IMG/VR virus record: IMGVR_UViG_3300005529_000067
Coordinates: 1-39,220 of that record
Strand: one strand, 5' to 3'
DNA: 39,220 nt
DNA from: a virus
The notes beneath the pieces are model-generated. The model was not told the DNA's origin. It searched no databases and worked only from the letters and a program-made list of their open reading frames with translations. The translations under genes and the position numbers were made by a program. Positions 5,746-39,150 of the stretch are shown here, piece after piece. How positions within the stretch are numbered: position 1 is the stretch's first letter; each line of letters opens with the position of its first letter.

Positions 5746-6145
5746 GAAGGTGCGCGACACGCCGTCACACACCTGTCGCGCGTGTCACACACCTTCCCCC
5801 GTTATCCACAAGGTGTGCGACGTGTGCGACACGTGCGCGACATCGCGTCACACACCTTCCAACCCCGCTGACCAGCAGAAACGCCGCCACACCCCCAAGG
5901 TGTGTGACGTGTGTGACACATCAGGGGAGGGTCGGAAAAAACTCTCTCTCCTCTTCCCCAAAAACTCACCCCCCACCAGAACCGTCACACACGTCACACA
6001 CCTTCACCCACCAGCACCCCAAACCAGCCACCCGACCACCCGGACAACTTCACGACGTCGTGAACCGGTCGAAGCCACCATGAGGTCGGCTGCCAACCAC
6101 CCTCGACCCCATGGTCACCGGCCGCCCACAAGGACCTCACCGTGA
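5723..6145 (+). CDS. Doubtful 140-residue frame over the repeat array
   Basis: An ATG at 5723 has AGGAG 7 bases upstream, inside the replicase gene, and the frame stays open to a TGA overlapping the next GTG at 6142. This is the same junction style as real genes here. Against it: the product is low-complexity (Pro, Thr, His and Arg rich), its CDVCDT and VTHVTH repeats simply translate the DNA repeats, and the region contains extensive inverted repeats. I think it is mostly non-coding, but dual use is possible. Confidence 0.27.
   Translation: MPLHGSSEKVRDTPSHTCRACHTPSPVIHKVCDVCDTCATSRHTPSNPADQQKRRHTPKVCDVCDTSGEGRKKLSLLFPKNSPPTRTVTHVTHLHPPAPQTSHPTTRTTSRRREPVEATMRSAANHPRPHGHRPPTRTSP
5747..6004 (+). 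repeat. Iteron-like GTGTGAC repeat array, candidate replication origin
   Basis: Seven copies of a 12-base unit AAGGTGTGTGAC occur in both directions. Forward copies start at 5747 (degenerate), 5810 and 5897; reverse copies (GTCACACACCT) lie at 5764, 5784, 5847 and 5993. Two of the forward copies and the last reverse copy carry a second GTGYGAC in tandem, 9 bases away. The arms 5897-5917 and 5984-6004 are exact 21-base inverted repeats. They enclose a stretch with A and CT runs (about 5936-5966), the least G+C-rich part nearby. Adjacency to the primase gene and a DnaA box supports an origin; function is inferred. Confidence 0.7.
5802..5810 (+). promoter_or_regulatory. Perfect DnaA box
   Basis: TTATCCACA matches the consensus DnaA box at every position. 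Its last base is the first base of a forward repeat unit, so the box is integrated in the array. This suggests host DnaA may take part in initiation, though a single 9-mer can also occur by chance. Confidence 0.6.
6049..6064. promoter_or_regulatory. Perfect 16-base palindrome, probable operator
   Basis: TTCACGACGTCGTGAA is identical to its own reverse complement. It lies 78 bases upstream of the first packaging gene. A perfect dyad of this length between the replication and late modules suggests a dimeric regulator site. No clear -35/-10 pair is visible around it. Confidence 0.5.
6077..6115. promoter_or_regulatory. Imperfect inverted repeat before the late operon
   Basis: ACCATGAGGTCG (6077-6088) pairs with CGACCCCATGGT (6104-6115) except for one A-C mismatch, leaving a 15-base loop. 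It lies 27 bases upstream of the packaging operon start. It could be a second operator or an RNA hairpin in the leader; it lacks a T-tract, so a simple terminator is less likely. Confidence 0.4.
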
Positions 6146-9949: not shown

Positions 9950-10477
9950 GTGGAGTGCGCCGTCGACGGGTGCCCGAAGCCCGCTCGAACTCGGGGATGG
10001 TGTTCGGCGCACTACGAGAGATGGCGACGCAACGGCGACCCCGGGCCGGCCGGTGATGCTCGTCGCCGCAAGCCGCGACCATGCTCAATCGAAGGCTGCA
10101 CCGCGCGTGCCGTCGCACGCGGATGGTGCGGCAAGCACTACGCACGATGGACCGCACACGGCGACCCAGTAGCAACTCGGCGACCGTCGTATGGGTCAGG
10201 GCGTATCACGAAGGGACGGCACGGCTACGTGCGCGTCTGGCGCCCTGGGCACCCGCTTGCCGACTCGACCGGCTACGTGTACGAACACCGCCTGGTGCTC
10301 TACGAAGCCGGACTCGACGTCGGCGACAAGTCCGTCCACCACATCAACGGCGACAAGGCCGACAACCGGCTCGAGAACCTCGAGCTCATGACCGCATCGG
10401 ATCATCACAAGTTGCATGCGGGGGAGACGGTAACGAACCAGTACGGAACGTGGCCGGTCAACAAGCGTTCCAGTTAG
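9950..10477 (+). CDS. HNH endonuclease with two N-terminal zinc modules
   Basis: 175 residues from GTG 9950. Two similar modules, CAVDGCPKPARTRGWCSAHY and CSIEGCTARAVARGWCGKHY, each give a C-x4-C-x9-C-x2-H zinc site followed by RW and GDP. After a basic linker comes an HNH core: YEHRLVLYEAG, VHHINGDKADNRLENLEL and ASDHHKLH. Such nucleases are frequently free-standing homing-like genes in phages, or assist packaging. Its own promoter and position between terminase and a reverse-strand gene suggest an inserted element. The 3' end overlaps the convergent gene by 20 bases. Confidence 0.88.
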   Translation: MECAVDGCPKPARTRGWCSAHYERWRRNGDPGPAGDARRRKPRPCSIEGCTARAVARGWCGKHYARWTAHGDPVATRRPSYGSGRITKGRHGYVRVWRPGHPLADSTGYVYEHRLVLYEAGLDVGDKSVHHINGDKADNRLENLELMTASDHHKLHAGETVTNQYGTWPVNKRSS

Positions 10478-36892: not shown

Positions 36893-36999
36893 GCGAGCTG
36901 TGGCGACTGTTCCGGCTGTTCATCGCATGGCTGTTCCGTCGAGGTGGCGACGACGACCCAGAGACCTCCTGGCTCGACCGACTCGTCCTCGACGCCTGA
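36889..36999 (+). CDS. 36-residue amphipathic peptide
   Basis: ATG 36889 overlaps the holin stop (ATGA). The product starts with an aromatic/basic amphipathic helix (LWRLFRLFIAWLFRR), then an acidic tail. It could insert at a membrane surface and modulate the holin. Small size limits certainty. Confidence 0.5.
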   Translation: MSELWRLFRLFIAWLFRRGGDDDPETSWLDRLVLDA

Positions 37000-37001
37000 C
37001 C

Positions 37002-37265
37002 GTGACGCATGTCGAAGCGTTGGCCGGCGAGCTCGACATCGCGGTCGTCGACGAGCTCATCGCCCGCGTCGACCAGCTGCACCAGGACGGTGTGCGCGAC
37101 GTCACGTTCGACATGGCCGGCGTGACGTTCTGCAACGGCCGCGGGTTCGCGGTGCTCGTCCATGCTTACCGGCTCGGCATGCACGTCACCGTGCGGCGCA
37201 TGCGGCCGCACATTCGCCGGCACCTGACGGTGATGGGTCTCGAGTCGTTCGCGACCGTCGACTGA
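37002..37265 (+). CDS. STAS-domain protein lacking the phospho-serine
   Basis: 87 residues from GTG 37002, one base after the previous stop region. The STAS layout is clear: GELDIAVVDELIARVDQL, VRDVTFDMAGVTF, a nucleotide-loop and helix FAVLVHAYRLGM, VTVRRMRPHIRRHLTVMGL. In anti-sigma antagonists the loop reads D-S-S/T-G; here positions 45-48 are N-G-R-G, so it cannot be phosphorylated in the usual way. It might stay constitutively active and titrate a host anti-sigma factor. That is inference. Confidence 0.8.
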   Translation: MTHVEALAGELDIAVVDELIARVDQLHQDGVRDVTFDMAGVTFCNGRGFAVLVHAYRLGMHVTVRRMRPHIRRHLTVMGLESFATVD

Positions 37266-37286
37266 GCAGGACCTCCCGGCGGGGTT

Positions 37287-37362
37287 GGCGAACACGATCG
37301 GCGGCGTCCTCGGCTCCGACCGTATCCCCACAGATCGGCCCGGGCCGAGGACGCCTCGCGTC
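37287..37362. repeat. Hairpin element, copy A
   Basis: Arms GGCGTCCTCGGC (37303-37314) and GCCGAGGACGCC (37344-37355) form a perfect 12-base stem around a 29-base loop. The loop core CGACCGTATCCCCACAGA is nearly identical to copy B at 38311-38385. Homology extends outward to GGCGAAC on the left and CGCGTC on the right. It lies between convergent genes and has no T-tract. Confidence 0.75.
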
Positions 37363-37480
37363 AGTGGGTGCGGTACCAGAGGGCGAGCAGGAACAGCCCG
37401 CCGATCGCGGCCACGCTCACCGCGAACAGCCACAAGCCGAAGAACACGCCTACCGCCACGTCGTACGCCCGCTCACTCAT
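37361..37480 (-). CDS. 39-residue single-TM protein, reverse strand
   Basis: On the reverse strand ATG (37480) to TGA (37361) encodes 39 residues: a short charged start MSERAYDVAV followed by one long hydrophobic segment (FFGLWLFAVSVAAIGGLFLL) and LWYRTH. GGAG sits 12 bases upstream. It is 22 bases downstream of the lipoprotein gene, so the two form a reverse operon. The end overlaps the right edge of hairpin copy A. Confidence 0.6.
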   Translation of the reverse strand: MSERAYDVAVGVFFGLWLFAVSVAAIGGLFLLALWYRTH

Positions 37481-37502
37481 GCGGGCGTTCTACTCCTGCA
37501 AG

Positions 37503-38222
37503 CTATTCGCAGGCGACGCCGTCGCCGTCACGGTCGAGCGCCGGCCGGTAGCCCGGCTGACCCCGGTACAACGGCGCCGCACCGGCAGCGCGGGCCGCTG
37601 CGCAGTTCGCGTAGTACACGTCACCACCCGACGGCGCTGTCGTTGGCGGCGGAGGCGGTGCCGTCGTCGGTGCAGCCGTCGTCGGCGCCGTCGTCGTCGT
37701 CGTGCTGACGAGCGACGCGATGTTCACGGTGTCCCAATGGACGATGGCGTGCTGGGCGTCGGCGAGCGTCGTCTCACCGCTGCACACCATGTCGTGCAAC
37801 TGGTTCTCGATCGCATCCTTGTCCACCGCACCGTTCCCGGCAGGGTCGTGCAATGGCTCGGGCCACAGGTTCTTGATGTCGTTCGACCCGCCCAACTCGA
37901 GCGAGATCAGATGGTCGACCTCGTAGTCCTCGCGGTTCACGTTCGTCAGCCCGTACTCCGCGAACACCTGGTCGCGCGTCGACTCCGACACTGACCGCAC
38001 CGACGCGCTGTACCCGCGCACACACACCTGCTCCGCGGTCACCGGGAACACGTCCCCGGGTGTCAGCGTCGGGCTCGGATGGAGCCGGTCCGGCTGCCCG
38101 GCCGCCAACGACGACGAGCTCGACGACGTCGTCGACGCAGCCGCCGGCGTCTTCGACTTCGAACACCCCACCGCCACCACCACCACCGCCAACAGCACCA
38201 TCACCGTTCGACGTTGCCTCAT
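37503..38222 (-). CDS. HNH-like / Excalibur lipoprotein, reverse strand
   Basis: 239 residues from ATG 38222. The signal MRQRR, VLLAVVVVAV and lipobox VAVGC (C20) mark a lipoprotein; a Ser/Thr linker follows. Residues 95-140 contain YEVDHLISLELGGSNDIKNL and WPEP, an HNH-type nuclease core (DH...N). After a Thr/Pro linker the C-terminus is an Excalibur domain: YYANCAAARAAGAAPLYRG and DRDGDGVACE (calcium-binding DxDxDG). A surface nuclease that could degrade incoming DNA fits superinfection exclusion, but this is inferred. Confidence 0.85.
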   Translation of the reverse strand: MRQRRTVMVLLAVVVVAVGCSKSKTPAAASTTSSSSSSLAAGQPDRLHPSPTLTPGDVFPVTAEQVCVRGYSASVRSVSESTRDQVFAEYGLTNVNREDYEVDHLISLELGGSNDIKNLWPEPLHDPAGNGAVDKDAIENQLHDMVCSGETTLADAQHAIVHWDTVNIASLVSTTTTTAPTTAAPTTAPPPPPTTAPSGGDVYYANCAAARAAGAAPLYRGQPGYRPALDRDGDGVACE

Positions 38223-38310
38223 CCCATCACCCCGCAGCTGCGCCCCCCGCGGCGCGCAACGTACCCGTAGACGGTACCCCTGTGCTTCGGGAGGAGCGGT
38301 GGTGGGTGGT

Positions 38311-38385
38311 GGCGAACCTGGTGGTCGGCGCCTCCGGTACGACCGCATCCCCACAGAGCGGCCCGGCCGGAGGCGTCCCCGCGTC
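38311..38385. repeat. Hairpin element, copy B
   Basis: Arms CGCCTCCGG (38329-38337) and CCGGAGGCG (38367-38375) pair around a 29-base loop containing CGACCGCATCCCCACAGA. Compared with copy A, three stem positions changed on both sides so that pairing is kept (T-A to C-G, C-G to T-A, T-A to C-G), while 25 of 27 central bases are the same. Both copies have the same orientation and enclose the reverse-strand pair. Confidence 0.75.
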
Positions 38386-38499: not shown

Positions 38500-38811
38500 A
38501 TGCAGGAAGCGACGCCCACCATCACCGTGGAAGCAATCCAGGCCGTGCTCAACGTGCTCGAACACGAGCCCGAAGCGCGCACGGAATTCAATGAGGGGCT
38601 CGCCAAGCACATCTCTCGACTGTCGATCGACCCCGGGCCCGATGCTCGCAACGCGTTCCTGCGGTTCGTGCTGCGATGGGTGGCGCTCGCCATGCTCGAA
38701 AGCGATCCGACCTGGCAGTCCCAGGTCGAGGCCGCTGACGCTGCGATTGCCGCCGGCACCCTCGGCGAAGCGGTCGATACAGCGCACCTGCGAGCGCTCC
38801 TCACGCACTGA
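38500..38811 (+). CDS. Antitoxin-like protein upstream of toxin gene
   Basis: 103 residues from ATG 38500 with GGAGG 4 bases upstream. It is helical throughout (VEAIQAVLNVLEHEPEARTEF, FLRFVLRWVALAML, AADAAIAAGTLGEAV). A TACGCT at 38477 may be a -10 element. No recognised DNA-binding domain. The role as antitoxin is inferred only from the next gene. Confidence 0.5.
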   Translation: MQEATPTITVEAIQAVLNVLEHEPEARTEFNEGLAKHISRLSIDPGPDARNAFLRFVLRWVALAMLESDPTWQSQVEAADAAIAAGTLGEAVDTAHLRALLTH

Positions 38812-38838: not shown

Positions 38839-39150
38839 ATGTGGCAGTGGCTGAACTTCCATCTGCTCGTCGACGCGGTGAACGCGTTGGACGACGACAT
38901 GAGAGACCTCGTGATCGCCGCGCTCGAACAGATCGCCGATGACCCGTTCGATCCGAACAACGTCGCCGTCAATGAGCTGCCCGCCACCTCGAAGCGGCAA
39001 GGCATCCGCGTCGCCTGGCTGCCGGGGGGACTGATCCTGATGTTCCGGATCCACGACAACGGTCCACCCCCGTACGCCGGCCCTCATCTCGTCGTCGTGG
39101 GTGTGCGCTCTATCGACGACATCGGAAGGCTGATTGACAACGACGAGTGA
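38839..39150 (+). CDS. RelE/ParE-like toxin candidate
   Basis: 103 residues from ATG 38839, 27 bases after the previous gene. The pattern helix LVDAVNALDDDMRDLVIAALEQIADDPFDPN, then VNELPATSKRQGIRVAWLPGGLILMFRI, and HLVVVGVRSIDDIGRLI corresponds to the helix-helix-strand order of RelE/ParE toxins. The basic residues R58 and R62 lie in the sheet start. RelE members cleave mRNA on ribosomes and ParE members poison gyrase; which type this is cannot be told. Confidence 0.55.
   Translation: MWQWLNFHLLVDAVNALDDDMRDLVIAALEQIADDPFDPNNVAVNELPATSKRQGIRVAWLPGGLILMFRIHDNGPPPYAGPHLVVVGVRSIDDIGRLIDNDE

Follow-up and report, generated by a model that had tools for sequence, protein, structure and literature searches.

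Why would a phage whose genes nearly all run rightward carry two similar hairpins, one on each side of a pair of reverse-strand genes? The window (the whole stretch of DNA analyzed here, a linear IMG/VR virus record of 39,220 bp) corresponds to a GC-rich tailed phage of soil type, with genes for a ParB-like protein, a helicase-primase, terminase, portal, scaffold, capsid, decoration, tape-measure and tail proteins, and an endolysin. Its terminase reaches at best 48% identity among IMG/VR relatives and about 35 to 41% among deposited phages, and its capsid protein has no relative in IMG/VR, the comparison collections being ones that may leave out records very near the window. With so distant a terminase and a capsid without relatives, the phage is therefore an orphan for comparison.

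Two other features of this genome are worth recording. An HNH homing-type endonuclease (HNH_3) is encoded at 9950-10477, between the terminase and portal genes. Immediately past the helicase-primase gene, CGTCACACACCTT / AAGGTGTGTGACG recurs in a cluster at 5746-6005, in direct as well as inverted orientation, with a DnaA-box-like TTATCCACA between the two arms of the cluster, which to judge from its sequence looks like an iteron-type replication origin.

Two direct elements around a reverse operon

The initial annotation described two direct elements of about 75 bases flanking a reverse gene pair, and our check of the sequence agrees. Both elements run in the same direction on the + strand and are of a 77-base type, copy 1 at 37286-37362 and copy 2 at 38310-38385, with a register offset of 1023 nt from the first to the second. 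Apart from the genes that they flank, at 37361-38222, this area indeed has no convincing reverse genes. The copies have a common layout, which consists of an 8-nt box (TGGCGAAC), a diverged 9-nt spacer, a GC stem of 11-12 bp, a 29-nt loop and the hexamer CGCGTC. The features of the locus are, from left to right:

36900..37265, + strand: neighboring gene for a STAS-domain protein (STAS_2, 4.4e-14), with which the rightward run ends ahead of copy 1
37286..37293, + strand: 5' box of copy 1, TGGCGAAC, from an 8-mer scan of the window
37303..37355, + strand: hairpin of copy 1, 12-bp stem GGCGTCCTCGGC/GCCGAGGACGCC plus a U-G pair
37315-37343, + strand: loop region of copy 1, 29 nt, with inner CCG/CGG
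37357..37362, + strand: 3' box of copy 1, CGCGTC, common to copy 2 in the loop register
37361..37480, - strand: cassette gene 2, an open reading frame for a 39-aa single-span membrane protein
37503..38222, - strand: cassette gene 1, for a 239-aa lipoprotein-type product with a C-terminal Excalibur domain (1.4e-17)
38310..38317, + strand: 5' box of copy 2, TGGCGAAC, from the same 8-mer scan
38327..38377, + strand: hairpin of copy 2, 11-bp stem GGCGCCTCCGG/CCGGAGGCGTC plus a U-G pair
38338-38366, + strand: loop region of copy 2, 29 nt
38380..38385, + strand: 3' box of copy 2, CGCGTC, common to copy 1 in the loop register
38500..38811, + strand: neighboring gene for a 103-aa protein, the first rightward gene after copy 2

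The repeat of the two elements is real. On the + strand of the whole window, TGGCGAAC occurs at 37286 and 38310 only, and its end is separated from the start of the stem by exactly 9 nt in both copies; the chance of such an 8-base run is about 4e-5 at a fixed register and about 8e-4 over 18 places. Without gaps the copies match at 45/60 positions, the second-best place of the window reaching 37/60 and the best partners of random window 60-mers averaging 34. The whole loop matches at 26/29 positions, a level attained by random 29-nt stretches of the window in 0/600 trials, and a recount of its core gave the annotated 25/27. CGCGTC alone is a weak signal because this hexamer is common in the genome. 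A covariance model built on both copies found no third copy in the window.

Little space separates the two reverse genes; it holds an AGGAG site, about 12 nt upstream of the membrane protein ATG. The 39-aa membrane protein has no match in Pfam, NCBIfam or PADLOC. The 239-aa lipoprotein has an HNH-like core (VDH...GG...NLWPE) that scores below the Pfam cut-off (15.3 of 21.4 bits) and no match in PADLOC, and its relatives were found in 28/396 actinobacterial genomes (best identity 57%). These bacterial relatives, together with the Excalibur and HNH-like parts, suggest that the gene is accessory cargo in the moron sense, and our guess would be a surface nuclease hindering other phages. A proposed match of the small membrane gene to Finkle gene 28 proved wrong; the 118-bp match is to the Excalibur domain. 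In one prophage-like contig, the gene for a related terminase is directly preceded by a gene (L139:9515-9907) whose HNH core shares 39% identity with that of the cassette nuclease. Among the rightward genes after copy 2, the product of the first has no match above the cut-off in Pfam and none in PHROGs, NCBIfam or PADLOC, and that of the second (38839-39150) gives the impression of a RelE/ParE-like C-terminal half, with no library match.

Pairing, loop conservation and strand

How strongly the two copies speak for a conserved fold depends on how they are aligned. Three paired stem differences had been annotated, and this count stands in the gapped alignment, the more economical of the two parses, as two pairs that are flipped (G-C/C-G and C-G/G-C) and the deletion of one T-A pair, on both arms, next to one change of G-C to G-U. 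In the ungapped register there are instead five double changes, all still paired. Five double changes made at random would all pair with a chance of about 0.02; five were reached in 16/500 shuffles, and slid registers give 0-1. Pairing is thus kept in both alignments, within one comparison of two sequences. The divergence of loop and stem differs significantly in the ungapped register (p = 0.008) and not significantly in the gapped alignment, which has 3/29 substitutions in the loop and 5/22 in the stem (p = 0.16). The annotated claim that selection keeps the loop is plausible, but it concerns two copies, and the compensatory signal is weaker than had been claimed.

The spacer adds another comparison, since 5/9 of its positions are unlike between the copies, versus 4/44 changed in the loop together with the boxes (post hoc p = 0.004). 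Judged from the sequence, the box, the pairing and the loop seem to be constrained, which we state with moderate confidence. This comparison bears on one alternative, namely that a plain U-less terminator was duplicated when the reverse genes were inserted and has since drifted, so that the similarity is residual and functionless. The overall identity of the copies would fit a diverged duplicate, as would the gapped substitution counts of loop and stem, which are not significantly different. Drift alone, however, would have had to be uneven to spare the boxes and loop relative to the spacer, and the flanks of the copies do not align past the element. We regard such a duplicate as rather unlikely.

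On the + strand, the folding z-scores are -2.85 for copy 1 and -2.17 for copy 2, and the fold of copy 1 reaches -45.1 kcal/mol. With these z-scores a single hairpin goes only moderately beyond its composition, and the strength lies in the pair. The z-scores do not discriminate between strands, copy 1 folding better on the - strand and copy 2 on the + strand. The wobble pairs 37315/37343, 38338/38366 and 38328/38376 are U-G or G-U in a + strand RNA and A-C mismatches when read on the - strand, a small and independent hint in favor of + strand RNA. The proposal that the element is a repeated RNA or operator, one half of the initial interpretation, is supported in that the fold, the loop and the upstream box at fixed spacing are kept and that the + strand has these G-U pairs.

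Two candidate features of the elements were rejected. One was a pseudoknot between CCCAC of the loop and a GTGGG that lies downstream of copy 1 but has no counterpart at copy 2. A coding role, considered for the frame DRIPT[DE]RPG present in both copies, is ruled out by an indel between box and loop that leaves them in different frames; the frame of copy 1 also continues antisense to the reverse genes.

Hairpins at the borders of opposite transcription units

The sequence, pairing, spacing, location and copy number of the elements are directly seen. Copy 1 occupies the gap between a rightward-gene stop and a leftward-gene stop, which fits a terminator; its hairpin starts 37 nt past the STAS stop and leaves 5 nt up to the stop of the reverse membrane gene. 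No T-run follows either stem, and a consensus terminator scan, which requires a U-run and a short loop, returned none at the elements. A GC stem with no U-run, at the borders of opposite units, fits U-less terminators. Nearly 90% of the terminator structures of Mycobacterium tuberculosis either lack a U trail or have one of mixed U and A, and U-less terminators are also reported in Streptomyces (PMC8355165). The same source cites Ingham, Hunter and Smith 1995 for U-less Rho-independent terminators in phiC31.

We therefore tentatively favor, as the best single explanation, U-less terminator-type + strand RNA hairpins that border a moron-like reverse operon and whose box and loop are probably recognized by a factor. 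We infer that the elements are transcribed, that they terminate transcription and that a factor binds at the loop. Both would be paralogous cis-acting RNA hairpins of rightward transcripts. Copy 1 would end the long rightward run, preventing antisense transcription into the reverse operon, and on the other strand it could also end that operon. Copy 2 would halt what rightward transcription is left, upstream of the following rightward genes. The conserved loop and the box at its fixed spacing could be recognized by a factor, of the phage or of its host, that tunes the effect; by analogy with phiC31, this may be a regulator.

Several observations argue against the terminator reading, among them the empty consensus scan and the lack of a comparable loop-sharing pair in the other phages compared below. 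Copy 2 has a GC-rich stem as well, but it lies between the start of the HNH/Excalibur gene (38222) and the rightward gene at 38500, and no rightward gene ends upstream of it, an odd place for a terminator and the weak point of the explanation. Furthermore, a generic terminator needs neither a conserved upstream box nor a conserved loop. Copy 2 would be sensible as a second barrier for the next rightward genes, or as their leader element. Because of this weak point, we keep in view a nut-like element and a new RNA element.

A nut/put-like or otherwise trans-regulated structured RNA would be the target of a phage protein modifying the message or RNA polymerase, and its purpose would not be termination. 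The invariant box, the diverged spacer of constant length and the hairpin with a conserved loop have the layout of boxA, spacer and boxB, and copy 2 precedes the next rightward genes. Yet copy 1 stands at the end and not at the start of a gene run, there are only two copies, no Rfam family matches and no candidate RNA-binding protein was recognized, N-like proteins being short, variable and hard to find. We know of no boxA or boxB that the box and loop would fit, and consider this reading unlikely. Somewhat less doubtful, although still not probable, is that the elements represent a new class of structured RNA acting in cis in phages, at which a phage factor would control transcription across the borders of an accessory (moron) operon. 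Such an RNA would consist of the 8-nt box, the fixed 9-nt spacer and the long-loop hairpin with the conserved core AUCCCCACAGA.

If the terminator-type explanation is true, the locus would be a compact example of how a phage insulates accessory genes on the reverse strand against the main transcript, and the box and loop would be a candidate recognition site. Two copies in one orphan genome are a lead, and not a new system on present evidence.

Searches for homologs and comparison with known systems

The wider search of actinophages and actinobacteria proposed with the initial annotation, by covariance model and loop core, revealed no homolog. Exact-core scans of IMG/VR gave 8 matches for CGACCGNATCCCCACAGA, none with the stem and most of them one repeated coding stretch with LDRIPTE in frame, and 2 matches for CCGNATCCCCACAGANCGG, at chance only; a scan with CCGNATCCCCACAGA hit 106 stretches, with a matching stem in none. 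A search of IMG/VR for CC-core-GG at the stem spacing returned 14 matches, none homologous. Among GTDB contigs, the long core had 0 matches and the shorter one 24, none with the stem. The covariance model R1 found nothing convincing in 56 loci and 43 whole virus records, nor in 396 actinobacterial genomes searched with strict filters and no positive control; its weak matches are ordinary U-less hairpins of other actinophages. Single elements used as blastn queries against INPHARED and PLSDB gave chance-level matches only. No match of the window to Rfam exceeded the gathering score, and the implausible miRNA and sRNA matches were far below the cut-off.

Actinophages with a related terminase commonly have GC-rich hairpins that lack a U-run. 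The most similar loop belongs to a hairpin of Skermania phage SPI1, 30 nt past the terminase stop and with a chance-level score, and we take this look-alike as convergent because it occurs once in that phage. Related contigs and five other actinophage genomes contained no hairpin pair with comparable loop sharing, the phiC31 set being nearest. A preference for C-runs in actinophage terminator loops was not convincing (C-run/G-run 47:22 in loops versus 6783:3933 in the background). As a separate observation, several actinophage contigs with related terminases have strong hairpins with unlike stems and a common loop, CATTMACACC (or CATTGAAACC). These were seen at L146:12032, L152:12713, L157:17189, L168:10096, L187:8731 and L197:16968, mostly just upstream of a gene whose product starts with M..ALGR.F.

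The other half of the initial interpretation was a recombination site moving the cassette. Hairpins that border a cassette on one and the same strand, with stems that vary, do recall integron attC sites and IS200/IS605 ends; here such direct hairpins, each with a 5' box, enclose an operon that resembles cargo, and its nuclease gene has relatives in the chromosomes of bacteria. Unlike attC, however, the elements have, as annotated, no GTTRRRY core (the reverse-strand GTTCGCC breaks R at positions 4 and 6), no complementary copy at the base and no integrase seen, and unlike IS200/IS605 or REP ends they come with no TnpA/RAYT-type transposase among the proteins scanned and no recognized cleavage or guide motif. 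No other recombinase was seen among the same proteins, no short target-site duplication flanks the cassette, and its trinucleotide composition is ordinary (rank 150 of 192 windows). Neither an empty site nor another cassette was found in relatives, in collections that hold no close one, and there are no extra copies in the window or in any collection searched. A recombination or single-strand transposition site mobilizing the reverse cassette is thus very improbable; this is an absence of support and not a disproof, because close relatives are lacking.

With lambda nut the elements have in common an 8-nt box, a spacer of about 9 nt and a hairpin with a conserved loop. They differ in that their sequence is unrelated and no cognate N-like protein was seen. 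The boxB of lambda has a 5-bp stem and a 5-nt loop.

Stoperators of the L5 type are, like our elements, asymmetric repeated intergenic sites in one orientation, that of transcription, but they are 13-bp sites without a hairpin, number more than twenty per genome and have a cognate repressor (PMC9283540). They lend something to the possibility of a double-stranded operator inside a terminator, where a regulator would bind the loop as DNA and block or end transcription. The phiC31 hairpins described below, with a repeated core in the loops of different stems, point the same way. Against it, there are two copies rather than more than twenty, the loop falls short of a clean palindrome, neither a repressor nor an integrase was recognized among the proteins scanned, and DNA binding alone would not keep the stems paired. 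Such an operator seems quite improbable.

The terminator-type explanation finds its closest parallels among the U-less terminators of phiC31, Streptomyces and mycobacteria, which likewise are GC-rich stem-loops past a gene end, with no U-tract and with variable paired stems. Their loops, in the hairpins seen here, typically have about 3-10 nt and are not shared, whereas that of our elements has 29 nt, is near-identical between copies and is accompanied by an upstream box. In phiC31 (L248), the hairpins at 6087, 27530 and 32531 are intergenic and combine different paired stems with one repeated core; the first two lie within 20 nt of a stop codon and the third before gene 16. Their core (ACTCACGTGAGT, with close variants) forms a nearly perfect palindrome, unlike the asymmetric loop of our elements, which occurs only twice. 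We take this repeated palindromic core to be the phiC31 repressor site, copies of which were reportedly described by Ingham et al. in 1994. The three hairpins deserve a systematic look as operator-in-terminator elements. For the elements studied here, phiC31 is the nearest precedent, with terminators that lack a poly-U and several hairpins that carry a repeated palindromic core in the loop.
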